Virus record (IMG/VR): IMGVR_UViG_3300005839_000006
Coordinates: 1-22,021 of that record
Reading direction: 5' to 3' (one strand)
Source: a virus
DNA: 22,021 bases
The translations under genes were made by a program, and so were the position numbers. The notes beneath the pieces are model-generated. The model searched no databases and was not told the origin of the DNA. It saw only the letters and a list, made by a program, of their open reading frames with translations. Below, piece by piece: positions 1 through 12,093 of this stretch (positions are counted from its first letter, which is position 1; each line of letters opens with the position of its first letter).

Positions 1-1
1 G

Positions 2-250
2 GCTCAGCTTTATTCTCTGGTATTTCTGGTTAGGGGCTTGGCTAGCCAGCTTGCTTGGTCTTCCAACCTTATACCCATGGCCTCTGGAGGTGCCATAGTG
101 AGGTATCACTGCGATAGCGCGCCTAAGACATGTCCAGGTGAGCTCTGGCATCCCCACAGGATAGACCTCATAGCGGCCATTATCACCCCTGATCCCCTTG
201 AAGGTGCTGAGAAGCTACACGCTATTCTCACAGAGGAGGCACAGCTATGA
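2..250 (+). CDS. 3' end of an unrecognised protein, cut by the window
   Basis: The frame is open from base 2 to the TGA at 248-250, so the gene probably begins outside the window. A TTG at 38 could start a 70-residue protein, but no good ribosome site precedes it. The first visible residues are hydrophobic (LYSLVFLVRG), which could be the end of a membrane segment. The rest holds two Cys and two His around CPGELWHPH and an acidic C-terminus. The stop overlaps the next gene's start as ATGA, so the two are probably co-translated. A neighbour of a lytic-type hydrolase might be a holin or tail-tip protein, but nothing in the residues proves either. Confidence 0.5.
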   Translation, partial: AQLYSLVFLVRGLASQLAWSSNLIPMASGGAIVRYHCDSAPKTCPGELWHPHRIDLIAAIITPDPLEGAEKLHAILTEEAQL

Positions 251-801
251 TAGGGGACCTGATATTTGTTCACGATAAAGGGCTTGGGGCGTGGCTTATC
301 CGCTTTTGGACACGCAAGGGTGCGCCCCAGGACTTTCCTAAGGGCTTCAACCATGTAGCAATTTATGTTGGCCCTAACAAGTGGCTCTCAGCTGAGCCCA
401 CGGGAATTAGGGAGCGAACAACAAAGTGGCTTCTGAGGAGTGCGTCTGGCTATGTGGTTCTGAGATACGACGGACGGCCTATTGCGATTGCGGACGAGGC
501 CAGGATTAACAAAGCTCCAGTTGTTGCGGTCTCATGGGCCAAGAAGCTTGCCGAGGGCCGGCCCTATGATTTCCTGGGGATTGTAGGGTTTGTGCTACAT
601 CGCCTTCTAAACATTAAGGTTGACTGGGGAAACAAATGGTTTTGCTCAGAGCTGTGTTGCGAGGCTTACCTGAGGGCTTTTGACGAGTTGGGTATTCCCC
701 ATTCTTACCGCGATCCCGCGGATACTACTCCTAATGACCTTTATAAGTGGGCCAGGGCCAACGGCTTTAGGATCGTGGCCGCCCTAGAAACAAAGAAATA
801 G
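247..801 (+). CDS. Permuted NlpC/P60-like (YiiX/LRAT-type) cysteine hydrolase
   Basis: This 184-residue protein has the marks of the circularly permuted papain-like family: an N-terminal GD motif (MIGDLIF), the His motif FNHVAIYVG (His36), the YDFLG motif (107-111), then the Cys motif WFCSELCCEA (nucleophile probably Cys133) and a late TPNDLYKW. His before Cys is the permuted order. Related proteins cut peptide or amide bonds in cell walls or lipids, so it may be a wall hydrolase used in lysis or entry. No signal peptide or wall-binding domain is visible, and 184 residues is normal for the fold. The start overlaps the preceding stop (ATGA). A terminator-like hairpin follows 28 bases downstream. 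Confidence 0.75.
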   Translation: MIGDLIFVHDKGLGAWLIRFWTRKGAPQDFPKGFNHVAIYVGPNKWLSAEPTGIRERTTKWLLRSASGYVVLRYDGRPIAIADEARINKAPVVAVSWAKKLAEGRPYDFLGIVGFVLHRLLNIKVDWGNKWFCSELCCEAYLRAFDELGIPHSYRDPADTTPNDLYKWARANGFRIVAALETKK

Positions 802-828
802 ACCTCCTATCATATAACCTCCTTCTAT

Positions 829-857
829 CCCTCTCCTTTACGGAGGGGGGTAGTTTT
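829..857 (+). terminator. Probable terminator after the hydrolase gene
   Basis: Bases 829-836 pair with 842-849 as an 8-bp stem (one G-U pair) over the loop TTTAC, followed by GTAGTTTT. It would end the transcript coming from the left. The short, interrupted T tract makes the call moderate. Confidence 0.5.
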
Positions 858-867
858 GGCTCATTTT

Positions 868-894
868 GTAAGTCCTATTTTCTCTAGGACTTAC
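868..894. repeat. Perfect 10-bp inverted repeat in the intergenic region
   Basis: GTAAGTCCTA (868-877) and TAGGACTTAC (885-894) are perfect complements over a 7-base loop. No T tract follows, so it is not a classic terminator; it could be an operator or an RNA processing hairpin. The rest of 895-1052 holds a possible stem (905-916 with 963-974, one mismatch) around a direct repeat of GGCCGGAAA (925-943). No gene is seen between 802 and 1235. Confidence 0.6.
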
Positions 895-1052
895 GATATC
901 AAACTTAGAGCTGTTTCTAGTTTTGGCCGGAAAAGGCCGGAAACCAGTCTTTCTAAACCTACAAACAACTCTAAATTACATGGCTTAAGTATAGGCCTAG
1001 CAACAACTTACGGATTATAACTTATACCTGATTAGACCCACCAAATTACCCC

Positions 1053-1081
1053 TTGACAGGCCATAGCAAATCGGTTATAAT
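1053..1081 (+). promoter_or_regulatory. Exact consensus sigma70-type promoter
   Basis: TTGACA at 1053-1058 and TATAAT at 1076-1081 are separated by exactly 17 bp, matching the bacterial housekeeping consensus at every position. Transcription should begin near 1088, just before the first arm of the structured leader. I saw no other perfect promoter in the window, so this is likely a strong early promoter using host RNA polymerase. Confidence 0.88.
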
Positions 1082-1087
1082 TTGCAC

Positions 1088-1235
1088 CTGTATGAAGCTG
1101 AGTGGCACCTCAGGCAAATGGAACCCCGGAACCCCCGGAGAGGCGTCCTATGCCACTCAGCTAGGTCTCTCCGGGGGTTCCCCCAAACCCGCCGGCCCGG
1201 CGGTCCCTTGTGGGAAAATGGGCAAAGGAGGTATC
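1088..1235 (+). promoter_or_regulatory. Structured 5' leader with two interleaved long stems
   Basis: Stem A pairs 1096-1107 (AGCTGAGTGGCA) with 1151-1162, 12 bp. Stem B pairs 1128-1142 (GGAACCCCCGGAGAG) with 1167-1181, 15 bp. The left arm of B lies in the loop of A and its right arm lies after A, so the order is A-B-A'-B': either a pseudoknot or two competing folds. A partial copy of the B arm at 1120-1127 could also compete. A short hairpin (1189-1194 with 1198-1203) follows, then the ribosome site AAAGGAGGT (1224-1232). A role in control of the gene behind it is inference. Confidence 0.7.
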
Positions 1236-1847
1236 ATGACGAGGTCTCATTTGATATATTTACTCCGGACGGGCAAGTGGAATGACTGGGATACATTCCC
1301 AGTCATATCGGAATTGTATGATGTGGTCAGATGGGAACAGGAACGCGGTTGGTATATTGAATATATACCAACCGCGGGAAAGGGCCTGCCCGCAATTTGG
1401 GAATTCGGGGGGGCCAGCACGCACCTGGGTCAAGCCCAAGTGGTGGGCAATAGAGACGGGCAACCTAAGGTGCCCATATATGTAAGGAAGCGTGGCCACC
1501 TGTCCTGTGGTGCCCACGGGCTATTTGTAGTCCGTCCGGGCATGAAAATCGCCACCTGCCGCCGCTATAGGCGGCAGTGGGTTGCCGCCTTATTTGAAGT
1601 GCGGGATGTGATTAAGGGAATCACCCCAAATACGGGGTTGATTCCCCTCAGGCTTATTGATGCCTATATGGGCATCAATAACGAAGCCGCGTGGGATATA
1701 GAAACCGAACACGCGGCTATCATAAATGCAGTGATAGACAAGGCCCATTGCTATCACTGCAGGGAGCTTCACTTTTGGCGCGAACCGGATCGCGATCGCG
1801 CCAAAAGGCCCGAACAGGAATGCGAATGCGGGCAGGAACACGAGTAA
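1236..1847 (+). CDS. Unrecognised Cys/His-containing protein from a hairpin-rich gene
   Basis: The start at 1236 is chosen because AAAGGAGGT ends 3 bases before it; the longer frame from 1053 would begin inside the promoter. The product is 203 residues and matches no family I know. It has a CGAHG motif, a second Cys in IATCRRYRRQ, and a C-terminal CYHC pair followed by CEC and a final HE-rich end, so one or two zinc sites are possible. The middle is basic (RKRGH, RRYRRQ), which suits nucleic-acid binding. Codon use resembles the neighbours and supports translation, yet seven long perfect hairpins lie inside the frame. The alternative is a noncoding RNA with a fortuitous frame; the strong ribosome site and length argue against it. 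Confidence 0.65.
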   Translation: MTRSHLIYLLRTGKWNDWDTFPVISELYDVVRWEQERGWYIEYIPTAGKGLPAIWEFGGASTHLGQAQVVGNRDGQPKVPIYVRKRGHLSCGAHGLFVVRPGMKIATCRRYRRQWVAALFEVRDVIKGITPNTGLIPLRLIDAYMGINNEAAWDIETEHAAIINAVIDKAHCYHCRELHFWREPDRDRAKRPEQECECGQEHE

Positions 1848-1930
1848 AGTGGCGTGGGTGTGCCGGTCAGGAGTCCGACCCTCTGACCGGCACCAAAGAT
1901 GAAGCCGAAAAGATATAAAAGAATAAAAGA

Positions 1931-1964
1931 AAGCGCCGGGCTTGGCTTGGTAGCCCGGCGTTTT
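1931..1964 (+). terminator. Rho-independent terminator
   Basis: CGCCGGGCT (1934-1942) pairs with AGCCCGGCG (1952-1960), and AAAG before it pairs with TTTT after it through one G-U pair. A T-rich run TTTTAATTT follows. It closes the transcript begun near 1088, giving an RNA of about 875 bases. Another GC-rich hairpin lies at 1981-2009 without a T tract. Confidence 0.8.
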
Positions 1965-2091
1965 AATTTAGCTCAAATAAACCCCGGAGCGTTGCAACAA
2001 CTCCGGGGTCATAGGCCCATAGTATCGCTATACAAATCCCATAACCATAAACCCCCGGCTCCGAGGGCTAAATCGGGCAAAGGAGGATAAG

Positions 2092-2451
2092 ATGAAGGTT
2101 TATAACTTCACTCCTCACCCGATAGTAATAAAGATACCGGGTGGAGATGATGTAGTCATAGAGCCTAGTGGTTATACTGCTAGGCTTGAGGAGAAACTTG
2201 CCCCTGCGGGCACTATTTGGCTTGAGGGGCATGTGGTTGACCTCTACAAGCGTGAGCTAGGAGAGGTCAAGATCATCCCCACCGAGCTGAAGCTGGAACC
2301 TGGAGATGTTGTCATAGTCTCCAGCTTGGTGGCCTATACTCTCAAAGAGCAGAGGCCGGAACTCATAGTCCTCGTCCCGGGCGAACCCGTCAGGGACGAG
2401 AAGGGAGCGATCATAGGAGTCAAGAACTTGTTTGTGATTGAGGGTTCTTGA
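2092..2451 (+). CDS. Conserved phage-type small protein of unknown function
   Basis: The 119-residue product starts MKVYNFTPHPIVI and ends with a PGEPVRDEKGAIIGVKNLFVI segment. From memory this resembles a small protein family seen in phages and actinobacterial prophages (N-terminal NLTPH motif, C-terminal PVRDxxGxIIG motif) with no assigned role. It looks mainly beta-stranded, with an SSLVAYTLKEQRP core. AAAGGAGG at 2081-2088 sets the start. The last codons and stop lie in a perfect 9-bp hairpin (2419-2427 with 2444-2452). It comes after the 1960 terminator with no clear promoter of its own, so read-through or an unseen promoter is needed. Confidence 0.7.
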   Translation: MKVYNFTPHPIVIKIPGGDDVVIEPSGYTARLEEKLAPAGTIWLEGHVVDLYKRELGEVKIIPTELKLEPGDVVIVSSLVAYTLKEQRPELIVLVPGEPVRDEKGAIIGVKNLFVIEGS

Positions 2452-2477
2452 CCCATGCAAAAGAAAAGGAGGCTATG

Positions 2478-2777
2478 ATGAAGGAGCTGAAAAGCATAGA
2501 AGAAGCCGTCTCCTGGTTTTCAAGCTCTTTACAGGACCAGGAGACATATCAGGCAATAGAGGAGCTAGTGAAGACGCTCAGGGAAAATGGTTTTGCGGTT
2601 GATCTGTTTCCGCCCCAATTTTATTGGGAGGAACCTCGCCGTGTAAGGATCACTAAAACCCTGGTCTTGATTGCGAAAGGCAAAGACGAAGCGGAAGTGG
2701 AGGCGCACTTTGTCAGAGATTTCTCAGAGGTGCCTCCACTCTACTACTGGGAAGTTCTTTCCCAAGAGGAGGCGTAA
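2478..2777 (+). CDS. Unrecognised small acidic protein
   Basis: The frame could start at TTG 2448, but AAAGGAGG at 2465-2472 points to ATG 2475 or 2478; 2478 has the better 5-base spacing. The product is about 99 residues, with an N-terminal helical, acidic part (SIEEAVSWFSSSLQDQETYQAIEELVKTL) and a C-terminal part that looks like beta strands ending in PPLYYWEVLSQEEA. Two perfect 9-bp hairpins lie in the gene (2508-2516 with 2537-2545; 2696-2704 with 2732-2740). No family is recognised. It sits in a run of small early genes. Confidence 0.65.
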   Translation: MKELKSIEEAVSWFSSSLQDQETYQAIEELVKTLRENGFAVDLFPPQFYWEEPRRVRITKTLVLIAKGKDEAEVEAHFVRDFSEVPPLYYWEVLSQEEA

Positions 2778-2778
2778 G

Positions 2779-3000
2779 ATGAACTTAGAGGAAATAAAAA
2801 AAGCGGCCAAGAAGCTAGCGCTAGAGTGGCCTACCCTAGATTGGTGCGACGACGATGACAAAACAGACTGGGCTTTGGTGGTGATATGGGATGTCTTAGT
2901 TCCTCTATGCGAGGGCGACCCCGAGGTGGAAAATGCGGTGAAAAAAGGGATAGAATACCTAACCTGGCAACGGGCAGGGGAATGGGAGGTTGACGACTGA
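2779..3000 (+). CDS. Unrecognised small acidic protein
   Basis: The 73-residue product starts at ATG 2779 behind GAGGAGG (2766-2772), directly after the previous stop. It begins with a lysine-rich helix (LEEIKKAAKKLALEW), then a strongly acidic WCDDDDKTDW stretch and a mixed helical end. It is probably cytoplasmic, with no membrane segment. Small acidic early phage proteins often bind host proteins, but nothing specific is visible here. Confidence 0.6.
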   Translation: MNLEEIKKAAKKLALEWPTLDWCDDDDKTDWALVVIWDVLVPLCEGDPEVENAVKKGIEYLTWQRAGEWEVDD

Positions 3001-3001
3001 T

Positions 3002-3214
3002 ATGAAACAGAAAGAAAAGAGACGGGTGGTATACTGCCCTCAGTGTCAACAAGATGTCCAACCTGAGGGCGTCTGGTATCAGGCCCGGCATGGAGAGTGC
3101 CGGGCTTTTGTTTCTTGCCCTCTCTGTGAGGCAAGAATTGAGATAGACCCTATAACGATGAGACCCATAGCCGCCGTCCCCGGCCATAACGATGAAACCG
3201 GGGATACAAGATAA
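3002..3214 (+). CDS. Small zinc-ribbon protein
   Basis: The 70-residue product from ATG 3002 holds two CxxC pairs (YCPQCQQDV and SCPLCEARI) spaced as in a zinc ribbon. Such modules bind nucleic acid or partner proteins. A TTG at 2990 would give a longer form but touches the ribosome site GGGAGGT (2984-2990). The 12-base spacing to ATG 3002 is rather long, so the start is uncertain. Several short perfect hairpins lie inside the gene, for example at 3080-3110. It is one of two small zinc-ribbon-like genes in the early region. Confidence 0.6.
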   Translation: MKQKEKRRVVYCPQCQQDVQPEGVWYQARHGECRAFVSCPLCEARIEIDPITMRPIAAVPGHNDETGDTR

Positions 3215-3225
3215 GGAGGTGTAAG

Positions 3226-3432
3226 ATGAGAGAGCGGTATTTTACCGCAATAGTAAAGATAGAGGTTATCCTCAAGACCCCCGATGAGGGGCAGGTGGAC
3301 ATCCAGTATACGGGAGACCACTATTCCACGGAGGCCTCAGAGGCCGTCCGTGGAGCTGTGGAGAAAGCCGCAAAGAAGGCCATTTCCGTGAACGGCCTTC
3401 TGGATAAAGAAAAGGAGGTGAAGCATGGATGA
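3226..3432 (+). CDS. Short relative of the Rad52-like core in the next gene
   Basis: Residues 4-60 of this 68-residue protein align by eye with residues about 66-122 of the next gene's product: both run aromatic-x-A-(I/V)-x-(I/V)-E-x-x-L-(K/R)-TPD, then (Q)xxG(D/N), then EA(V/L)(R/K)GA(V/I) and KA(I/L)SVxG. That pattern resembles the conserved part of Rad52/Sak single-strand annealing proteins. This copy lacks the N-terminal part and the C-terminal helical domain, so it may be a partner or decoy subunit from a partial duplication. AAGGAGG supports the start and the stop overlaps the next gene by 8 bases. Confidence 0.6.
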   Translation: MRERYFTAIVKIEVILKTPDEGQVDIQYTGDHYSTEASEAVRGAVEKAAKKAISVNGLLDKEKEVKHG

Positions 3433-4087
3433 GTTCATCCGCAGGGTAAACGAACTCCTGGATAGCTATGGCTCGGAGGCTATCCAGGAATATGACGCCG
3501 GCTATGATACTCTAAGGGGTTATAGCCCGGCATATGTTTTCCGGGCCATTAGAGAAGCCGGAGGTATCATCCGGCGCACGCAAATCCTACAACATGGTGA
3601 ATCTCGCGAGGATAGATCGTGGACAGCGTGGGCTATTGTAGAGGCTACGCTACGGACCCCAGACGGCGAGGTAATAACTTTACAACATGTTGGCAATAGC
3701 AGGTCTAATACGGCCCCTGGCGAGGCTCTGAAAGGAGCAATAACGAATGCTTTGGAAAAAGCCCTCTCTGTAATAGGAGTGGGCGAAAAGGCTTACATGG
3801 GCTTGTTGAGTCAAGACAGGGGCGTGGAGAAAACATCGGAGAAGCCCACATCCGCCACATCCGCGAGAGATTACCCTCCTATGGCGACTGTAAATCAGAT
3901 AAACCGCATAGCCGCACTGGGGCGCACCATAAAGGCGCACCCGGAAATAGAAAAACAGTATGGCGCGGAATTACAGGAATTTCGCGAACAGATGCGACGC
4001 GGGATGACGAAGAAGGAGGCTTCAGCTTTTATTAGCTGGTGCGAGCAACACGGCATCATGCCAACCTGGGAGGGTGAAGATGGGTGA
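3425..4087 (+). CDS. Putative Rad52-like single-strand annealing protein
   Basis: The 220-residue protein has three parts. Residues 1-60 are helical with GYSPAYVFRAIREAGG. Residues 65-127 carry WTAWAIVEATLRTPDGE, then GEALKGAITNALEKALSVIGVGEKAY, which resembles the Rad52/DdrA/Sak signature (a beta strand with DG, then A-x-K-G-A-x-T-x-A-x-x-x-A-L plus G-x-G). Residues 153-206 (MATVNQINRIAALG ... MTKKEASAFISW) resemble the small helical tail often found on phage DNA-handling proteins. Such proteins bind single strands and anneal complementary DNA. The helicase and resolvase close by suit this. The start follows AAAGGAGG and overlaps its paralogue. The match is by motif memory and may be wrong. 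Confidence 0.5.
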   Translation: MDEFIRRVNELLDSYGSEAIQEYDAGYDTLRGYSPAYVFRAIREAGGIIRRTQILQHGESREDRSWTAWAIVEATLRTPDGEVITLQHVGNSRSNTAPGEALKGAITNALEKALSVIGVGEKAYMGLLSQDRGVEKTSEKPTSATSARDYPPMATVNQINRIAALGRTIKAHPEIEKQYGAELQEFREQMRRGMTKKEASAFISWCEQHGIMPTWEGEDG

Positions 4088-4523
4088 GAAACGGATAACT
4101 CTACCGGCTCCTGGCTTAGAGGACTTTGACCGGCTTATCCCTGGTATAGGCCGGTTCATTTTGAATGCTGTGGCCCTCATAAACTCGCAGTCTCCGTCTG
4201 AGGTAGCTGATACTATGTTGGTTTGTGAGGGCTATTTGGCTTTCGCAAGCCAGGAGAGGGCCAAAGCCGAAATCTGGAAGCGGGAACAAGAGACCATGAA
4301 TTACCAAGCCCTTACAGCAACCGGACCTGACGGGAAACCCCTTACTTCTGCGACTGCGGCCGCAGAGCTAAAATACCTCACGAACGGCCGGCTAAATGAG
4401 AGCTATGCCCAGTTAAAACTCTGGGAGGCTCTAGAGACTCGTCTAGAAGGCCTCCGTGATACCCTCCTTTCCTATCTCCGAACTTTGGAGAAGGAAAGGG
4501 AAAGAACTGAAAGGGAAATTTGA
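4080..4523 (+). CDS. Coiled-coil protein of the recombination cluster
   Basis: The 147-residue product is almost wholly helical. Residues from about 52 on (YLAFASQERAKAEIWKREQE) and the C-terminus (ALETRLEGLRDTLLSYLRTLEKERERTEREI) have heptad-like charged patterns, and a loop TATGPDGKPLTSAT lies between them. ATG 4080 follows GGGAGGGTG and overlaps the previous stop by 8 bases; GTG 4074 is less likely. Lying between a Rad52-like gene and a RuvC-like gene, it could be a UvsY-like recombination mediator, which is also a short helical oligomer, but this is inferred from context only. Confidence 0.6.
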   Translation: MGEKRITLPAPGLEDFDRLIPGIGRFILNAVALINSQSPSEVADTMLVCEGYLAFASQERAKAEIWKREQETMNYQALTATGPDGKPLTSATAAAELKYLTNGRLNESYAQLKLWEALETRLEGLRDTLLSYLRTLEKERERTEREI

Positions 4524-4547
4524 CCGCCTTAACCGCCCTTTCACCAT

Positions 4548-4589
4548 CACCCTCAGGGGTTCGGGTTCAATTCCCGGCCCCTGAGGGTG
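4548..4589 (+). ncRNA. Long hairpin resembling a tRNA acceptor/T-arm minihelix
   Basis: CACCCTCAGGGG (4548-4559) pairs perfectly with CCCCTGAGGGTG (4578-4589). Inside lies a second stem CGGG/CCCG (4562-4565 with 4573-4576) over the 7-base loop TTCAATT, which matches the canonical tRNA T-loop. A 12-bp helix with a T-loop is the shape of an acceptor-plus-T-arm minihelix. There is no D arm or anticodon arm upstream and no T tract downstream, so it is neither a tRNA nor a terminator. It lies in the gap before the resolvase gene, upstream of its ribosome site. Confidence 0.6.
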
Positions 4590-4601
4590 TTATGAGGTGG
4601 C

Positions 4602-5165
4602 ATGTCTGAGATCATCATAGGTATTGACCCTGGCATTACGACGGGGATTGCTGTCATATGCCAGGAGGAGCTTGTTCTTCTCACCGAGGGAAAGATAGAT
4701 ATCCCGGCTCCAGGTATTGTCTGGTATAACAGATACGAGAAATACGAGAGAAGTCATATAGAGGATTTCCTATGCCGGGATTCTGTGGTGATATATTTAG
4801 AGATTCCCTGGGAAGGATGGGCCAGAGTAGGAGAGAAGGCCTTGAATGTAGCCTCTCTGGCCAAGTGTTCGTTCTATGCAGGAATGCTATATCAGTGGTT
4901 CCTAGCACATCGCATAGGGGCTATAAACCTTGTAGAACCCCGTAAATGGCGTGAGACCATAGGGGGACGCCGGGCTTCAGATGAAGATCTCTGGCGTATA
5001 TTTGAGTGGGAAATGTTGGATCAAAAGCTATGGAATAAGATATACGATATCTTTCTCAACAAAGAGGGAAACTACATCCAAGCTCGCGAGCATATCCGGG
5101 ATGCTTATCTGATAGCCCGATATGGCGTAGGGCTTCTAAACCTAGAAAGGAGGATAAAACCATGA
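4602..5165 (+). CDS. RuvC-like Holliday junction resolvase
   Basis: The 187-residue protein shows the RNase H-fold acid set of RuvC-type nucleases: Asp9 in IGIDPG, Glu67 at the end of a strand in VVIYLEIP, and Asp167 in EHIRDAYLIARYG, near Glu163. VEPRKWRE at 111-118 resembles the matching region of other phage RuvC-like proteins. Such enzymes cut four-way junctions and branched DNA in the cytoplasm, using metal ions, and clear replication and recombination intermediates before packaging. The ribosome site GAGGTGG precedes ATG 4602. Length is normal. The next gene overlaps its stop by 4 bases. Confidence 0.8.
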   Translation: MSEIIIGIDPGITTGIAVICQEELVLLTEGKIDIPAPGIVWYNRYEKYERSHIEDFLCRDSVVIYLEIPWEGWARVGEKALNVASLAKCSFYAGMLYQWFLAHRIGAINLVEPRKWRETIGGRRASDEDLWRIFEWEMLDQKLWNKIYDIFLNKEGNYIQAREHIRDAYLIARYGVGLLNLERRIKP

Positions 5166-5389
5166 GAGAGGTCAGGATATCAGGGGTGTCGTCATTACAG
5201 GGGGATATGATTGACCTGGTCTTATTCCCCTGTGGGGATACGACCCTCACCACGATTCAGCTCAGCGTAAAAAGGGCAAAGGAATGTCTGGACAAACAGG
5301 CTAACAAAGGCAAGGGATATTGCATAATAGAGGGGACAAACATTTGTCCCCTCCTAAACCTATCCCTTATAAAGAAGAAGGAGGACTAA
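5162..5389 (+). CDS. Unrecognised small protein
   Basis: The 75-residue product begins MREVRISGVSSLQGD and appears to have an N-terminal beta part and a lysine-rich middle (VKRAKECLDKQANKGKGY), with a basic tail ending KKKED. It has Cys residues but no paired zinc motif. AAAGGAGG before ATG 5162 and the ATGA overlap with the resolvase stop support translation. Codons for its C-terminal part include a perfect 11-bp hairpin (5330-5340 with 5343-5353) with only CA between the arms. No family is recognised; the place between resolvase and helicase suggests a DNA-metabolism accessory. Confidence 0.6.
   Translation: MREVRISGVSSLQGDMIDLVLFPCGDTTLTTIQLSVKRAKECLDKQANKGKGYCIIEGTNICPLLNLSLIKKKED
5330..5353. 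repeat. Near-perfect palindrome with 11-bp arms
   Basis: GAGGGGACAAA (5330-5340) and TTTGTCCCCTC (5343-5353) are perfect complements separated by two bases. It lies inside the small gene ahead of the helicase, about 40 bases before the helicase start. No T tract follows. It could be an operator-like site or an mRNA hairpin. Confidence 0.7.
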
Positions 5390-5390
5390 C

Positions 5391-7514
5391 ATGAAGGCAA
5401 ACCCCACCGAACAAGCCCTCATAGGAACACTTCTTGTTTATCCTGAGGAGTGTCCACGCGTACTAGAGGTCATAACCATAGATGACATAAAGGGCCAAGC
5501 CGAGAGATTTATATTCCAAGCTATACAGGCCCTCTATAATAACGGGAACAAAACCCCTGATGTAGTGCAGATAATAGAGGAACTGGAACGCCGCGGGTGG
5601 CTTCAGGCCATAGGAGGCCGTGAATATCTGGCCAAGCTCCAGGATTATGCATTATCAGCGCGTCAGATAGACGAGTATGTTGAAACCCTGCTCAGGCGCC
5701 GGTATCGTTATCAGATCATCCGCATGGCCACTGATATTATTCAGGCCGCCAAGCATGGAGATAAACCTCAACTTACTGAGGCTTTCACCAAGCTGTCTGA
5801 GACCGCTCAGCTATTCTTTGCGGATTATGAAGGAACCGAGGAATTCATCCCCATGTCCCATGTGGAGCCTGAGACCCCTCAGTGGGTTATTGAGGATTGG
5901 ATTCCCCGGAATGGCCTCTCAATCATGGCTGGCCATCCCGGCACTGGGAAAACCTGGGCCGCCCTAGCCATGGCCGCCTTTGTAGCTTCTCAGGGGGGCC
6001 GTGTTGTAATTATTTCCACTGAGGACGCGGCGGGGATTCTGAGGAATCGCCTAGACGCAATAGGAGTGGACATGGCCCAGATAGGAGACAACATTCTGGT
6101 TCCCTCTAAGCCGTTAAACCTCCTTCTTGTTCCGGATCAGGAGGCCCGGTGGCAGGAAATAGGCCAAAGGCTCCAACCTGATCTTGTTATCCTGGACAGC
6201 TTACAATCGTTCTTTCCGGGACGAATAGACATTAACCGGGCCAACGAGGTAAGGGAGGCTCTAAACATCCTGGATAGGGCTTTTCCTGGCGCCGGAATCC
6301 TAGCTCTTTACCACCGGCCCAAATCCGGCAGTGATCCCATTCTAGGTTCCGTGGACTTCAGGGCAAAGGCTCGCTCGGTGATAAGCATAGAACAAGACCC
6401 CCTGACTGGAGAAAGAATCATGCGAATTGTAAAGTGCAATTACAAAGACATGAGCCTTATCCGGCCAATCAGCTTTGGGATTACCCCTGAGGGGTTTAGG
6501 TGGAAAGGGGCTTCTGTGGAGAGTGTAGCCGGTCTTACAACTGAGGAACAAAGACATGCCGCGGAGGTAATCATAGAGGCCCTCAAGGAGGCCGGGCCAG
6601 AGGGAATATCGGTATCTGACCTCAAAGCCAAGCTGAAGAGTGAGGGGATACCTGAGAAAATATACCGCGACACATGGGAACACCTGGCCAGGGTTGGCTA
6701 TGTTCCCCGACTAAGCCGAGGTGGAAATCCTAAAGAGAAGAAAGCAGTTCTACTACGCCGCGGGGAAGTCCCCAGGGGGTTCGTATATCATGCTAGAGGT
6801 GAGAATGGAAACCAATCGCCCAATCGCCATAGTATATATGAGGGCGATTGGGCGATTGACGGAAACCCTAATAATGACGCGGATTTCCAGCAAGAAGAAG
6901 TTCCTGAGACCACAGGAGGAGAGGGCGATTGGTTTCCAAGGGGAGAACCAATCGCCCAATCGCCCTACCCTATATATGGCGATTGGGCGATTGAAAGAAA
7001 CTCTAATGGTGGTGCGGGTTCCCAAGAAGGGGTTCCTGAAACTGAAGGGCGATTGGAGGGCGATTGCTTTTGCCCGGGGGAAAGACCAATCGCCCCAATC
7101 GCCCCAGGAGAGGAAATGTCCTCAGATTCTCTGGAGGGCAATCGCCCCAATAGCCCAGGGGAGAGCTCAGATAGGGCGATTGAAAAAATAAGTCCTGATA
7201 ATGAAGAGAACAACCAATCGCCCAATCGCCCCAATAGCCCAACCCCAGCTGAGCTAGACGCCCTAGAAGCCGAGGAGTTTCCTCTAGACCCGTCCCTCAG
7301 GGATGATGACTCTGGCCGGTTCCCTGAGGAACTGGGGGAGACCAAAGAGGAGAGGGATGACTATACGCCCCCACCACCCCCACGGGGTATGGACCCGGCC
7401 CAGTGGGAATATCTATGCCGTCTGTTTGGGCTAGAGGAGATACCCGATGATAGATTTCCACCCCCAAAGAACCCTAAAGGAAAAAACCAAAACCATAAGG
7501 AGGTAAAACCATGA
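5391..7514 (+). CDS. Replication ATPase: DnaB N-domain, RepA-like core, repeat tail
   Basis: Residues about 3-100 match the DnaB N-terminal domain (PTEQALIGTLL, GGREYLAKL). Residues about 155-370 form a RecA-fold ATPase of the RepA/AAA_25 type: Walker A GHPGTGKT at 181-188, IISTED after it, Walker B LVILDS at 265-270. Residues about 380-460 look like a winged helix (GISVSDLKAKLKSEGIPEKIYRDTWEHLARVGYV). Residues about 470-707 are low-complexity and disordered, rich in Pro, Glu, Asp, Gly and Asn. The protein is most likely the replicative helicase or its loader; no primase motifs are seen. The DNA for residues 475-616 carries the 8-bp repeat array. AAGAAGGAGG precedes the start, and the stop overlaps the next gene (ATGA). 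A classic DnaB C-terminal domain is not evident. Confidence 0.8.
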   Translation: MKANPTEQALIGTLLVYPEECPRVLEVITIDDIKGQAERFIFQAIQALYNNGNKTPDVVQIIEELERRGWLQAIGGREYLAKLQDYALSARQIDEYVETLLRRRYRYQIIRMATDIIQAAKHGDKPQLTEAFTKLSETAQLFFADYEGTEEFIPMSHVEPETPQWVIEDWIPRNGLSIMAGHPGTGKTWAALAMAAFVASQGGRVVIISTEDAAGILRNRLDAIGVDMAQIGDNILVPSKPLNLLLVPDQEARWQEIGQRLQPDLVILDSLQSFFPGRIDINRANEVREALNILDRAFPGAGILALYHRPKSGSDPILGSVDFRAKARSVISIEQDPLTGERIMRIVKCNYKDMSLIRPISFGITPEGFRWKGASVESVAGLTTEEQRHAAEVIIEALKEAGPEGISVSDLKAKLKSEGIPEKIYRDTWEHLARVGYVPRLSRGGNPKEKKAVLLRRGEVPRGFVYHARGENGNQSPNRHSIYEGDWAIDGNPNNDADFQQEEVPETTGGEGDWFPRGEPIAQSPYPIYGDWAIERNSNGGAGSQEGVPETEGRLEGDCFCPGERPIAPIAPGEEMSSDSLEGNRPNSPGESSDRAIEKISPDNEENNQSPNRPNSPTPAELDALEAEEFPLDPSLRDDDSGRFPEELGETKEERDDYTPPPPPRGMDPAQWEYLCRLFGLEEIPDDRFPPPKNPKGKNQNHKEVKP
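6813..6858. repeat. First 16-bp perfect dyad of the array
   Basis: CAATCGCCCAATCGCC (6813-6828) pairs perfectly with its reverse complement at 6843-6858, across a 14-base loop containing TATATAT. Each arm is two 8-bp units in tandem. Confidence 0.9.
6949..6993. repeat. Second 16-bp perfect dyad of the array
   Basis: The same 16-base arm at 6949-6964 pairs with 6978-6993 over a 13-base loop that again ends in TATATAT. A single reverse unit at 6924-6931 precedes it. A looser third dyad joins 7048-7066 to 7087-7103. Confidence 0.9.
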
Positions 7515-7813
7515 ACATCAAGACAAAGCAAGGGAAATATAGTCAGGTATATCACCTGACTATGTCAGAACAGGAGGTAAAGGACATCCAAGCTCTCCTG
7601 TTATGCGTGTTCAAGGCAATAGCAGAGAACAACGACATAACCATAGGCCTAAGGAACTGGTGCTTACAGATGAACAGCTTACAGGGGAGCAATAAGATCA
7701 GTGAAGGTCTCAGGGATATGGGCTCTATGATTCTAACAGCGTCAACGCTATTACACCTGATCAACATGAACAAGAAGGAGGAAAGCCATGGACAAAGTGA
7801 TAGCCGTATATGA
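7511..7813 (+). CDS. Unrecognised small helical protein
   Basis: The 100-residue product starts at ATG 7511, overlapping the helicase stop, behind AAGGAGG. After a short N-terminal part it looks helical (SEQEVKDIQALLLCVFKAIAENN, ISEGLRDMGSMILTASTLLHLINM). A perfect 10-bp hairpin (7539-7548 with 7554-7563, loop ATATC) lies in the first codons, where it could affect translation. It overlaps the next gene by 26 bases. No family is recognised. Confidence 0.6.
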   Translation: MNIKTKQGKYSQVYHLTMSEQEVKDIQALLLCVFKAIAENNDITIGLRNWCLQMNSLQGSNKISEGLRDMGSMILTASTLLHLINMNKKEESHGQSDSRI

Positions 7814-8066
7814 CAAATGGAAGCGAGTCAAATGTAGGGCCCACATCAAAGAGGAGAGGAATAAGCTGACCATAGAGGTGGATAGGAACCCGGAGGTCTG
7901 GCTCCCACAAATCCTCGCGGCGATAACAAACTGCGACGGCAGTGATTATAGGGGGGTGCTTGATATGCTAAATGATGGTAAGATCCACGAGTGGGGAACT
8001 TGGTATGACGAAAAAGGCAGGGATTTTGACGGAGCTTTAAAGGAGGATAAACATGAAGGAGGATAA
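7788..8066 (+). CDS. Unrecognised small charged protein
   Basis: The 92-residue product starts at ATG 7788 behind AAGGAGGAAAG, inside the end of the preceding gene. It begins with beta-like, basic residues (YDKWKRVKCRAHIKEERNKLTIEVD) and has an acidic, glycine-rich end. No motif is recognised. Its last codons contain the ribosome site and start of the next gene, so the run is tightly coupled. Confidence 0.6.
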   Translation: MDKVIAVYDKWKRVKCRAHIKEERNKLTIEVDRNPEVWLPQILAAITNCDGSDYRGVLDMLNDGKIHEWGTWYDEKGRDFDGALKEDKHEGG

Positions 8067-8235
8067 ATACCGATCAAGATACGGCTATTGCAAATGGTGT
8101 GGCCGTATCATTTCCTCGTGGAGTGCGATGTTTAGAAAAAACTGTGGAGCAAAATATCCCGTGTGGGTTTATTGTTCCGGCTGTTGTTGGCGGGAGGCCA
8201 AAAAAGCTAAGAAACAAAAGGAGGTGAAGTCATGA
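8053..8235 (+). CDS. Small zinc-ribbon-like protein
   Basis: The 60-residue basic product has YCKWCGR near the start and YCSGCCWRE later, two CxxC pairs that would form a zinc ribbon, then a lysine-rich tail. This suggests a nucleic-acid or protein contact module. The start lies behind AAAGGAGG and overlaps the previous gene by 14 bases; the stop overlaps the next start (ATGA). An 8-bp hairpin (8078-8085 with 8102-8109) spans the first Cys pair. Confidence 0.6.
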   Translation: MKEDKYRSRYGYCKWCGRIISSWSAMFRKNCGAKYPVWVYCSGCCWREAKKAKKQKEVKS

Positions 8236-8912
8236 CAGACAAAACCGTAAACATCGCCATGCTAGGCCCTGAGCTTACACCAGCTCAGGTGGAGAAGATA
8301 CTCAACGAGATGGAGCTTTTCATCCGCCTGGAATACCCCAGGTCTGAGAAGCCCGCTAAGCCCTTGTCTGATCTGGAAAGCTGGAATAGTCTCTTTTCAT
8401 GCGAAGAAGAGACTGTGGTGGCGATAGCCCCTAAACATCTGCTTGACTTGGATACCCCACCTGGCTCTTGGGGGGCATTCCACTTTGAGTTCCCCCACTA
8501 TGAGTTCCTGCAAGCAGTCTATTACTACGACTATGGTAATGTGAAGGTGCATGGACATCTCCTTAGGATAACCGACAAGATGTATAACGAGTTAAAGCGG
8601 TTTCTCCGGGATAACTTTAACGAACATGTATGTGTGATTGAGACGATGTTGGTTTACATACCGGATCTGCCTAACAAACAAGAGCGCTGTGAGACTGAGT
8701 CTGTGATAGCTTACAAAGCTGGTGGTGCAGTTGTTGCTCGTGAGGACTTTGAAGGTGCAAAACGATATAGAGACGAGGTGCTGGATGAGTTCTTCACCTG
8801 GATTGACGAGGCGGTAGAATATTATACAAAGATAAGGTCAAGGACAAGGCGCTCAAGAAAGGAGGATAACCATGACAGACAAGACCATAACCATAACCCT
8901 AAGCACAGATGA
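8232..8912 (+). CDS. Unrecognised early protein with His-rich tail
   Basis: The 226-residue product has an N-terminal helical segment (LTPAQVEKILNEMELFIRLEYP), an aromatic middle (FHFEFPHYEFLQAVYYYDYGNVKVHGHLLRI) and a tail rich in Asp, His, Asn and Arg. The tail is encoded where the frame overlaps the next gene by 41 bases, so its composition may follow from the overlap. AAAGGAGG precedes ATG 8232. It starts MTDKTVNI, almost the same as the next gene. No family is recognised. Confidence 0.6.
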   Translation: MTDKTVNIAMLGPELTPAQVEKILNEMELFIRLEYPRSEKPAKPLSDLESWNSLFSCEEETVVAIAPKHLLDLDTPPGSWGAFHFEFPHYEFLQAVYYYDYGNVKVHGHLLRITDKMYNELKRFLRDNFNEHVCVIETMLVYIPDLPNKQERCETESVIAYKAGGAVVAREDFEGAKRYRDEVLDEFFTWIDEAVEYYTKIRSRTRRSRKEDNHDRQDHNHNPKHR

Positions 8913-9198
8913 GGCCAGGAGGATCGTGAATGGTCTTCACCTCCTCCTGATAGTCTTGGCAGACGACAGGGATTTTCCTGATCTAGAATATGCTCAGGAA
9001 ATCATGAGCGAATGGCTCTTAGCGAAGTATAAAGACGACGAGGAGGAAGCTTGCGAGGTAATAAAGGCTCTGTGGCGGCTAAACCATGTTCTCCTTGAGA
9101 GAATTGAAAAGACCGGGGAGCCACTTCTGAGCGAGGACGAAATCTCTAGCAGGGACGCACTGGAGGTAGTCAAGCGAAAGAAGGGGGTAAGACCATGA
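8872..9198 (+). CDS. Unrecognised small acidic protein
   Basis: The 108-residue product starts MTDKTITI behind AAAGGAGG. It looks mainly helical (STDEARRIVNGLHLLLIVLADD, QEIMSEWLLAKYKDDEEEACEVIKALWRL) with a basic C-terminus. The shared ribosome site and first five codons with the gene before it suggest that a translation-start segment was copied between neighbours. Its stop overlaps the next start (ATGA). No family is recognised. Confidence 0.6.
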   Translation: MTDKTITITLSTDEARRIVNGLHLLLIVLADDRDFPDLEYAQEIMSEWLLAKYKDDEEEACEVIKALWRLNHVLLERIEKTGEPLLSEDEISSRDALEVVKRKKGVRP

Positions 9199-9539
9199 AA
9201 AACCCGTCAGAGATATGGAAAGAGCTGGAACTAGGGAAAAACCTGGGAGAAATAACTATCCCAGAAGAGCTATGGCGAAAGATAGAAGAGCTAACCCGGC
9301 AGTATAACAGCAGGGCAACCAAGAAGAGAAGGAAAATATTTCCTCAAGCGATGCTGGTATTCCTGCTGGTAAGTGCTGTGGATAAGGCATTCTTCTGTGG
9401 GATAGACTATCTCATTGGCATGGTAAAAGAGGCCCATGATCATCTTAGGCCTATGTGGCGTGAGGATTGGAGAGCCTTTTGGGAGAAACAACGGAAAGCC
9501 CTAGAAGAGGAAAAGGTTAAACAAGACGAGGAGGTGTAA
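9195..9539 (+). CDS. Unrecognised small protein
   Basis: The 114-residue product is helical and charged, with a hydrophobic stretch at about 48-70 (FPQAMLVFLLVSAVDKAFFCGIDYLIG) that could be a buried helix or a weak membrane segment. The C-terminus is a charged helix (FWEKQRKALEEEKVKQDEEV). The ribosome site is weaker here (AAGGGGGT), but the ATGA overlap supports coupling. No family is recognised. Confidence 0.55.
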   Translation: MKNPSEIWKELELGKNLGEITIPEELWRKIEELTRQYNSRATKKRRKIFPQAMLVFLLVSAVDKAFFCGIDYLIGMVKEAHDHLRPMWREDWRAFWEKQRKALEEEKVKQDEEV

Positions 9540-9542
9540 ACC

Positions 9543-10025
9543 ATGGAAAGGTTAACAGAACAAGCTGTGAGGATGAAGCTAGCTAAAGCCGGCCTAGAGC
9601 TTGAGAAGGAGTGGATTGATGGCCGGTTATATCATGTGAGGGTTTCTCCTCTTATATCCTCGTATAATAGCTTCATAGCATCCTTCAAGTCCCTTAGGGC
9701 GCTAGACGCGTGGTTTGACGAGAGGTTCAAGGACAAGGAGACCATGCTCAGGTTGATTGATGAGACGGATATAGACGAGATTACAATACGGCAAATACAA
9801 AGTAAAACTCACGCTAGCAGGGATGAGGTCATAGAGCGGATAAAGATGTTGAAAAAGGTTATCGTCCGCGAAAAAGGGATATTCCCATATGGGATGTCTA
9901 TCGTGTGGTCATATGAGCATAGGTTAATCTTAGGTCTGATACCTCGTTATTCACCTGATTTCATAAGAAGGTGTCTTCAGGAGGTTGGTATAAGTGAGTG
10001 GTTTGACGAGGTGATAACCATATAG
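9543..10025 (+). CDS. Unrecognised protein ending the early run
   Basis: The 160-residue product starts at ATG 9543 behind GAGGAGGTG. The first 60 residues include a strand-like DGRLYHVRV and aromatic SPLISSYNSFIASF. A middle segment (ITIRQIQSKTHASRDEVIERIKMLKKVIVREKG) looks like a helix-turn-helix or winged helix, so DNA binding is possible. The end holds RRCLQEVGISEWFDE. No family is recognised. A 12-bp perfect palindrome lies at 9893-9904. Confidence 0.6.
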   Translation: MERLTEQAVRMKLAKAGLELEKEWIDGRLYHVRVSPLISSYNSFIASFKSLRALDAWFDERFKDKETMLRLIDETDIDEITIRQIQSKTHASRDEVIERIKMLKKVIVREKGIFPYGMSIVWSYEHRLILGLIPRYSPDFIRRCLQEVGISEWFDEVITI

Positions 10026-10036
10026 GAGGTAAAACC

Positions 10037-10072
10037 ATGAGTAAAGTCCATTTTGAGGACGAGGAGGCTTGA
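10037..10072 (+). CDS. Eleven-residue micro-ORF with a full ribosome site
   Basis: TAGGAGGT (10023-10030) precedes ATG 10037, which reads MSKVHFEDEEA and stops. The spacing and site equal those of the real early genes. It could be a leader peptide, a true micropeptide or the remnant of a deleted gene. Its stop overlaps the -35-like TTGACT of a possible promoter at the early/late boundary. Confidence 0.35.
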   Translation: MSKVHFEDEEA

Positions 10073-10127: not shown

Positions 10128-10814
10128 ATGCGAACGAAGCAACCTAGAATGCAAAAAAAATGCAAAAGGGGATTCACCCCCTATTCTGATATGACAGGGA
10201 AACCACACTGGCCTGAGAGCTTGAGAAAACGAGCTCGTGAGATTTACATCTCCTATCCGGGCCATGTAAGTGAAGCTATGGACTATACTTACAGAGCTCT
10301 TCAATACGAATTCCCTAAGGTTCCTCACTTAGTTACCCTATACAGGTGGGCAAATAAAGAGGAATGGGAGAAAGCAAGACAGACAAATCTCAAAGCCAAG
10401 GCCCTGGACGAAATCGCCAAAGAAGCTGGTAAGCCCGTGGAGCAAATAGCCCCTGAGGACTTTCTGGTGTTCTTACAGGGTGCCCTAGAGAAAGACCTCA
10501 AGCGCTCAGAGATAGATCAACAATTTATTGAGGTTTTCCAGAAGCGTATCATGGAGGTGGCAAAGGATAGCGGCTCAGTCAAAGAACTAGCCTCAGCTCT
10601 CATAGCGACCTCGCGGGCCGCGGACGCAAAGCTGAGACGGGCCTCAGTGATAGGCACCGTTCTCAGGGCCATAGGAGAAGCTATACAGGCCAGAGCAGAG
10701 GTTATGAGGGAGGGCGTGTGTCCGGCCATGTCCGGTGGCCCTATCCCAGAAGGATGTCCCCTAATACGAGGACTATTAGATGATAACGACAGCACTTCAG
10801 AAGGCCAAGACTGA
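10128..10814 (+). CDS. terS: Probable terminase small subunit
   Basis: The 228-residue protein directly precedes and overlaps the large terminase gene. It has a basic N-terminus, then a helix-turn-helix-like segment with PHLVTLYRWANKEEWEKAR at about 65-83, a pattern common in small terminases that recognise the packaging site. The remainder is helical, suitable for oligomer formation (SVKELASALIATSRAADAKLRRA), with a Pro/Gly/Asp-rich tail. Small terminases bind viral DNA and hand it to the large subunit. AGGAG sits 6 bases before ATG 10128. The role rests on position plus the HTH. Confidence 0.7.
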   Translation: MRTKQPRMQKKCKRGFTPYSDMTGKPHWPESLRKRAREIYISYPGHVSEAMDYTYRALQYEFPKVPHLVTLYRWANKEEWEKARQTNLKAKALDEIAKEAGKPVEQIAPEDFLVFLQGALEKDLKRSEIDQQFIEVFQKRIMEVAKDSGSVKELASALIATSRAADAKLRRASVIGTVLRAIGEAIQARAEVMREGVCPAMSGGPIPEGCPLIRGLLDDNDSTSEGQD

Positions 10815-12093
10815 CCCTGTGGCCCTGGCCCGGGCTCTATGGAACCAGGAATTATGGGAGGGTGGCCGGGCTATCCTAGAGGCCGTGGCCCGGAATTCTC
10901 GTGTGGTTGTTATAGGAGCTAATGGTGTTGGTAAAAGTCATGCCATTTCCCTGGCCGTCATGCATTATTTTCTCACGCGATCCCGTGCTATGGCTATCAT
11001 AACCTCCGCGTCCTGGGGTCAGCTTCAAAGAGGTCTGTGGCGCTATACCTCCTCGTTGGCTAGGAGAATAACACTACTCAGGATTGTCCAAGACAGGATT
11101 GAATACCGGGATAGGTGGATATGGGCCGTCTCTACAAACGCTAAGGAGCGGCTTCAAGGTCTTCATGGCGAGCATGTTCTCGTTGTTGTGGATGAGGGCT
11201 CCGGTGTCCCGGATTGGCTTCCTGAGGTTATCATAGCCATGTCCCCTGAGAAGGTTGTCATATCCGGGAATCCCTTGGAGCCTCGTGGCCCTCTGTGGGA
11301 GGCCTGGAACGACCCTCATTATACCCGCTTGGCCATATCAGCTCTAGATTTCCCAAATGTAAAAGAGGGACGGATTGTTTTCCCCGGCGGCATTACCCGC
11401 GAGACAATAAACGAGGTCATAACCAGATATGGAGAAGATAGCCCCGTATATCAGGCCAGGGTCTTAGGTCAATTCCCTGAGAACCTGGAGAACATAGTAA
11501 TCCCGTGGAGCATAATCTCCATAGCCACCCAGAGAGAGCTGGTGGCGGCCGGAGAGGCCGTCATAGGTGTGGATGTGGCCCGCGGTGGTGAGGATAGGAC
11601 AGCTGTAGCTGTTATACGAGGAAATAGTGTATCACGAATTGAGACCTGGCAAATCCCAGACCTTATGGCCACGACAGGTAAAATCATAGCCCTGTGGGAA
11701 CAAGAGGGCCGGCCTCAGATTGTTGTTGACGAGACAGGTTTAGGAGGTGGGGTTGTGGATAGACTGCGAGAGCAAAACATCCCGGTAAGGGGCGTGAATT
11801 TTGGTGCTGGAGCTGTAAGGGGAGACAGATTCGCGAATATGAGGGCAGAGCTCTGGTGGACACTGAGAGAGGCCCTTCAGGAATGGCTTGCAATCCCTGA
11901 TAACCGAGAGCTACATGATGATTTGATGTCAGTGAGATATGGTTTTGATAGCCGCGGACGGATAAAGCTAGAACCGAAATCCGAGCTGGCTCGTTCTCCG
12001 GACATAGGAGATGCCCTGGCCCTGGCAGTGTGGGGCCGGGCTTCTAAAGGAGCTGCCCAGACATGGCTAGAGGTGCTAGAGAAACTAAGATAA
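10780..12093 (+). CDS. terL: Terminase large subunit (packaging ATPase and nuclease)
   Basis: The 437-residue protein has both terminase domains. The ATPase has Walker A GANGVGKS at 46-53, Walker B VLVVVDEG at 133-140 with Glu139, and SGNP at 162-165 as a likely coupling motif. The RNase H-like nuclease has Asp265 in GVDVARGGEDRTA, Asp317 in VVDETGLGGG, and Asp408/Asp411 in SPDIGDALALAVWG. It drives DNA into the prohead and cuts genomes at the portal. The start lies 35 bases inside the small-subunit gene with only a weak ribosome site, so coupling is likely. Its end overlaps the next gene by 31 bases. Confidence 0.95.
   Translation: MITTALQKAKTDPVALARALWNQELWEGGRAILEAVARNSRVVVIGANGVGKSHAISLAVMHYFLTRSRAMAIITSASWGQLQRGLWRYTSSLARRITLLRIVQDRIEYRDRWIWAVSTNAKERLQGLHGEHVLVVVDEGSGVPDWLPEVIIAMSPEKVVISGNPLEPRGPLWEAWNDPHYTRLAISALDFPNVKEGRIVFPGGITRETINEVITRYGEDSPVYQARVLGQFPENLENIVIPWSIISIATQRELVAAGEAVIGVDVARGGEDRTAVAVIRGNSVSRIETWQIPDLMATTGKIIALWEQEGRPQIVVDETGLGGGVVDRLREQNIPVRGVNFGAGAVRGDRFANMRAELWWTLREALQEWLAIPDNRELHDDLMSVRYGFDSRGRIKLEPKSELARSPDIGDALALAVWGRASKGAAQTWLEVLEKLR

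Follow-up and report, generated by a model that had tools for sequence, protein, structure and literature searches.

A word array within a phage helicase gene

The window analyzed here, i.e., the whole stretch of 22,021 bp, is an entire IMG/VR record that comprises an early region and a siphovirus-type head/tail region with genes for terminase (10780-12093), portal, protease, capsid, adaptor, and tape measure. On the plus strand of the early region, an open reading frame of 707 aa at 5391-7514 encodes a replicative helicase according to its Pfam and PHROG matches (PHROG 19, DnaB-like replicative helicase), and the gene of a RuvC-like Holliday junction resolvase lies two genes upstream on the same strand (4602-5165; PHROG 1770, E = 3.6e-11). 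The helicase consists of a DnaB_N domain (aa 6-100) followed by a RecA-fold, RepA-like AAA_25 domain (aa 158-313; 5862-6329, plus strand; PF13481, E = 1.5e-25; Walker A at aa 181-188). Its PF13481 score of 90.4 bits, compared to a cut-off of 27, places it among the RepA-like (AAA_25) helicases, and neither SF3 helicase nor primase domains were found among its Pfam profiles.

Behind this motor, we predict a winged-helix domain at aa 385-455 (6543-6755, plus strand), which we propose as the reader of the words described below. The AlphaFold2 model of aa 374-470, which was built from a single sequence, shows three helices and then two strands (H-H-H-E-E; mean pLDDT 69.7), and its matches in structure comparisons were overwhelmingly winged helices (best Z 9.1), each of them individually weak. 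Given these weak individual matches and the single-sequence model, we take the prediction as support for the fold and not for a function.

Directly behind the code for the predicted winged helix begins an array of short words (6813-7239; no strand is assigned to it or its parts) that lies inside the helicase gene and ends 275 nt ahead of the stop codon. All 17 exact copies of the 8-bp word CAATCGCC in the 22,021-bp record fall within 6813-7230, with zero exact copies elsewhere, compared to an expectation of 0.70 and a maximum of 4 in 100 shuffles. The array further includes two copies that deviate by one base (CAATAGCC at 7148 and 7232) and thereby reaches to 7239. These counts and shuffles confirm the initial annotation of this DNA, which had listed seventeen words and two variants in both directions. 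As is general for iteron origins, copies of a short word are clustered at one place, here within a helicase gene.

The words occur on both strands and in all six combinations of strand and codon register, one of which is represented only once. Shuffling of synonymous codons with the protein left unchanged produced 1.2 words on average and no more than 6 in 5000 trials, compared to the 17 observed. The words are therefore not explained by the encoded protein but kept as DNA or RNA, just as the initial annotation had argued.

The first part of the array is organized as two dyads, and their perfect 16-bp arms and TATATAT-containing, AT-rich loops are as originally described. Dyad 1 (6813-6858) is composed of two tandem words, a 14-base loop (ATAGTATATATGAG), and two inverted words, with its arms at 6813-6828 and 6843-6858. 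Dyad 2 (6949-6993) has the same composition around a 13-base loop (CTACCCTATATAT), with arms at 6949-6964 and 6978-6993. The remaining words (7048-7230) form an inverted pair at 7048/7059, a direct pair at 7087/7096, singles at 7139 and 7175, and another direct pair at 7215/7223. Spacing inside pairs is mainly 8 bp, with 9 and 11 bp also represented.

Most of the array is held by a 135-bp segmental duplication (6809-7104; 2.2 copies with 77% matches according to TRF) from which dyads 1 and 2 arose, and the 17 words therefore did not all arise independently. This enlargement by duplication would also be expected if the array were a functionless product of neutral slippage and duplication in a fast-evolving disordered tail. 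However, inverted copies are not made by slippage, and the words are better kept than their surroundings since the two copies of the duplication are identical at 43 of 45 word positions but only 62 of 86 positions elsewhere (Fisher p = 0.001). In light of these observations and of the relatives and other helicases presented below, we regard neutral amplification as very improbable.

Conservation of the array in a phage with different structural genes

Two scans of viral contigs both returned the same two other contigs carrying the window helicase, while a protein scan of genome contigs found zero further relatives of it. The first relative is nearly identical to the window, with 99.9% identity over 15 kb. 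The second, L007, is 43,020 bp long with a 55-bp terminal overlap, which suggests that it is a complete circular genome. The core of the L007 helicase is 85% identical to that of the window, and 38% of the four-fold degenerate sites in the core differ.

L007 has an array at the same position of the gene with 11 AATCGCC words in ca. 270 bp, and the base ahead of AATCGCC has shifted in concert from C to A or T (AAATCGCC/TAATCGCC). The array includes a dyad around TTATATATATAA that is homologous to dyad 1 and has periods of 8 and 9, with the two arms of this dyad spaced unequally (8 and 9). Across the complete L007 genome, 11 of 14 AATCGCC copies are found inside the helicase gene. Two expectations tied to the initial annotation thus came out in its favor, i.e., that the helicase genes of relatives would keep the array and that its words would not be spread over the genome, be it the window or L007.

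The length of the helicase tail is unequal between the window and L007, and such variation among relatives would fit neutral amplification. However, conservation at the DNA level is again concentrated on the words, because the two tails agree at 87 of 92 word positions and 349 of 436 other aligned positions, a contrast that is mildly overestimated by the repeat-favoring aligner.

The dyads could alternatively act at the RNA level if they fold into strong hairpins within the helicase mRNA and thereby control its translation, stability, or termination. Folding is indeed far above that of shuffled sequence in both the window (z = -8.2) and L007 (z = -6.1), but inverted repeats in any DNA yield such a score. 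Furthermore, the unequally spaced arms of dyad 1 in L007 leave the long stem bulged while each word is kept, and many of the words occur as tandem singles that have no partner nearby. We therefore consider RNA-level action quite improbable.

The early region of L007 resembles stretches of window positions 1-10045 (early and lysis region) with 71-93% DNA identity in pieces. In contrast, the structural genes of the two phages (terminase, portal, tail) have no DNA similarity, and their portals belong to different families. The replication module appears to have been transferred between differently built phages. This bears on the possibility that the array might serve as a site of packaging or recombination, or that a REP-like element was inserted here, an idea that can draw on intergenic palindromes with similar words in some bacteria, e.g., in Caldilineaceae. 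However, L007 has the same array with an unrelated head module, while in the window the terminase gene (10780-12093) is far from the array and the phage carries zero copies of the word elsewhere. We consider this explanation extremely improbable.

L007 also has a long intergenic region (2513-3113) ahead of a tRNA-Met gene. It contains tandem repeats of 13 bp (GCTATTGCTCCTAG), degenerate repeats rich in pyrimidines (TCCTCACCTGAGAA type), and a single tandem pair of the CAATCGCC word. This region is possibly a second control site, and its extra word pair could be the real replication start in place of the array.

The word is private to its lineage

Word scans of millions of viral contigs and the genomes of 84,980 species revealed no comparable array outside the lineage with the exception of a single virus (L073), and the BLASTN matches of the array to phages and plasmids were weak and at chance level. 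Scans of viral and genome contigs for tandem pairs, triplets, or dyads as a cross-virus signal of the word were abandoned because they mostly retrieved collagen-like coding repeats, HIP1-like cyanobacterial repeats, REP-like palindromes, and chance pairs. The word is therefore private to the lineage, while its layout recurs widely, as described in the next section.

The exception, L073, has GGGCGATTT iterons that face each other across an AT-rich stretch at 2655-2785, directly downstream of an NrS-1-like primase-polymerase/helicase gene. This 9-bp word is identical to that of L007, though the virus is unrelated, and judging from its layout the site looks like an origin.

Similar words were also encountered in other contexts. 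One viral contig (L138:11776-11839) has seven GGGCGATgg repeats beside several TTGGCAATCTTGGCAAT repeats. Genomes of Caldilineaceae (L155, L162, L174, L185, L196, and L198) contain recurrent intergenic palindromes in which AATCGCC/GGCGATT lies beside runs like GGGGATTGGGGATT; these are probably a REP-like family unrelated to the helicase array.

Recurrent arrays at the 3' end of AAA_25 helicase genes

Since the word is private to the lineage, we tested the layout in its place. Most of 17 distant helicase loci taken from collections of phages and plasmids were without a cluster beyond shuffles. One of the 17, Microbacterium phage Fizzles, has three copies of GTGTCACAA, a short gap, and three inverted copies within the end of its primase/helicase gene.

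Several repeat clusters were observed at other positions around helicase genes. Vibrio phage 1.123.O has seven intergenic CCGCGAG words upstream of its helicase gene (L219:2296-2556), which we regard as a candidate origin. A Streptomyces mobaraensis plasmid carries AATCGGGGAAAACCC dyads (L232:2335-2510) within the gene that immediately precedes the one for a DnaB-like helicase. In Campylobacter coli plasmid pCOS502, seven TAAATGAGG-type words begin at L233:5978 where no gene is listed, ca. 2 kb behind an AAA_25 ATPase gene.

For a systematic survey, we sampled ca. 300 genomes from each of three bacterial phyla for AAA_25 matches with E <= 1e-22, which gave 79 loci with a clear ORF that were counted whatever their element type. 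A cluster was called significant if a 7-base word within 250 bp exceeded each of 20 shuffles, with word length and window size set after the first examples had been seen. Significant clusters were found in 43 of the 79 loci compared to ca. 4 expected by chance, though some loci are close relatives (L326-L335) and these counts therefore overstate independence; nearly half of the surveyed AAA_25 helicases are without a significant array. All but two of the 43 clusters (41) are located at the 3' end of the gene (binomial p = 6e-17), defined as the zone from 300 nt past Walker A to 500 nt past the stop codon, which makes up 35% of the sequence. Strong both-strand arrays of 6-13 words were present at 25 of the 79 AAA_25 loci and at none of 27 RadA/DnaB-type controls (p = 0.0004).

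With one cluster located upstream of the domain excluded, the remaining 24 strong arrays begin 806-1165 nt past Walker A, and the arrays of the window (882 nt), L007 (884 nt), and Fizzles (937 nt) start at comparable distances. Ten of these 24 begin well within the ORF and the rest near or just beyond the stop codon. The ORF can thus end before, in, or after the array, while the array itself keeps its place behind one and the same protein region. In the surveyed arrays, copies on the same strand often have a period of 9 bp; the 8-bp period of the window had originally been set apart from known iterons, but 8-9 bp is ordinary for the class.

The words vary between elements, while near-identical helicases (L331/L332, 99%) have a common word. 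In one pair of helicases with 82% identity (L347/L349), the words differ by one base in all copies. Compared to the remainder of the winged helix, the putative recognition helix is enriched in differences between these two proteins (p = 0.01), but no such enrichment is seen when the whole protein serves as the reference (p = 0.17), so that a coupling of word and recognition helix is suggestive only.

RepA-like (AAA_25) helicase genes therefore recurrently carry word arrays on both strands at their 3' end, with other words at other loci, and this fits the reading of the window array as an origin. Such recurrence at a common position next to other helicases also adds to the case against neutral amplification.

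A candidate replication origin, probably read by its own helicase

We think it probable that the array is the replication origin of the phage, or its main helicase-loading site, and that it is read by the helicase itself. The initial annotation had already proposed a candidate origin inside this gene, which L007 and the AAA_25 survey now support, while origin activity itself is what we infer from them. Several lines of evidence argue for this reading, beginning with the 17 of 17 words that fall into the helicase tail and are unexplained by its protein sequence. The array and its dyad with AT-rich loop are kept in place by a relative with different structural genes, a predicted winged helix is encoded ahead of the array, and the survey found clusters at the 3' end (41/43) as well as strong arrays (25/79 vs. 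0/27 controls). Finally, there is precedent in SaPI Rep, SCCmec Cch2, and the PICI origins.

Mechanistically, the 8-bp words would be bound by the winged helix, with which the conserved part of the helicase ends, and word pairs facing each other across the short TATATAT stretch would join two helicase assemblies head to head. The AT stretch could then melt, so that helicase rings would be loaded onto the opened strands with no need for an additional initiator. As the reading frame continues through the array, the disordered tail may largely be what the origin DNA happens to encode.

GC skew, which the initial annotation had suggested as a check, turned out to be uninformative as an origin marker. 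It is positive almost throughout the window, and the detrended skew of the complete relative L007 has its minimum ca. 5 kb from the array at a block of reversed genes, i.e., at a switch of gene strand.

Alternatively, the array might be bound by another factor such as a phage repressor or partition protein, or the helicase might bind it as an autoregulator only, in which case it would control expression or segregation and not the start of replication. Operators and centromeres also use both-strand arrays of short words, and the additional word pair of L007 sits in an intergenic region. However, no partition gene was recognized among the window genes searched, and across many unrelated elements the array tracks the winged helix of the helicase and not a promoter or par operon. 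We consider this alternative unlikely, though it deserves to be kept in mind.

Beyond the single phage, layouts that closely resemble that of the window seem to be common next to AAA_25 helicases, judging from the survey. We see about an even chance that these elements form a widespread replicon class in phages and mobile elements across several phyla that is so far unrecognized (judged from open-access papers, so that an earlier description elsewhere is possible). Its RepA-like (AAA_25) helicases would be their own initiators, each with a fused winged helix, a private word, and the origin directly behind, which would often be translated as a throw-away tail. If this is true, word and winged helix should co-evolve, and origin and reader would travel as one cassette. 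The model would also give the winged-helix ends of RepA-like phage helicases a concrete, testable function and provide a simple rule for finding origins in phages and mobile elements without a known initiator, i.e., to look directly behind the winged helix. Moreover, the array would be a clean case of a cis-acting site that dictates the sequence of coding DNA.

Comparison with known replication systems

The origin repeats of phage lambda lie within the gene of the protein that reads them, O, and the initial annotation had named lambda O as a parallel. However, systems of the SaPI/PICI Rep and P4 alpha type are closer because they combine a C-terminal DNA-binding domain with iterons beside the gene. 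Lambda O is a replisome organizer without helicase activity that recruits the helicase, as are TP901-1 ORF13 and Tuc2009 Rep2009, whereas the window gene encodes the helicase itself. The alpha protein of phage P4 combines a primase and an SF3 helicase motor with a winged helix at its C-terminus that binds the origin by reading short iterons, and these ori/crr iterons are located outside the alpha gene. The window helicase resembles it in the winged-helix fold behind the motor, which is a predicted fold in our case, but differs in its RecA-fold motor and in the array inside the gene.

For TP901-1 ORF13 and Tuc2009 Rep2009, origin repeats have been described within the gene of the reader protein (PMC8965321). 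Plasmid RSF1010 shares with the window a RepA-like hexameric helicase and an iteron origin, but there a separate protein, RepC, melts oriV where RepA is loaded (PMC8965321), while the DNA-binding domain of the window appears to be fused to the helicase.

In SaPI Rep and SCCmec Cch2, the C-terminal domain is what binds the iterons, which are located shortly downstream of the respective gene (PMC7581432), and PICI origins are found immediately 3' to the initiator gene (PMC6092414). The window shares with them a helicase with a C-terminal DNA-binding domain, predicted in our case, and short iterons beside its own gene (PMC7581432, PMC6092414). In PICIs, two sets of iterons flank an AT-rich region (PMC6092414, PMC7581432). 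The two dyads of the window place word pairs around AT-rich loops of 13-14 bases that are much shorter than the AT-rich region of PICIs. The helicases of SaPI, PICI, and SCCmec are of the DUF927 or D5/Primase_Cterm type, while that of the window is RepA-like (AAA_25) with a DnaB N-terminal domain. Their origins lie downstream of the gene and the window array inside it, with related AAA_25 loci showing arrays inside, across, or just beyond the stop codon. Furthermore, SaPI and PICI are satellite islands without capsid genes of their own, whereas the window belongs to a tailed phage with its own head genes. By analogy, our best reading is that the window follows the logic of SaPI/PICI Rep and P4 alpha with another helicase family and, as often among its AAA_25 relatives, within the coding sequence.
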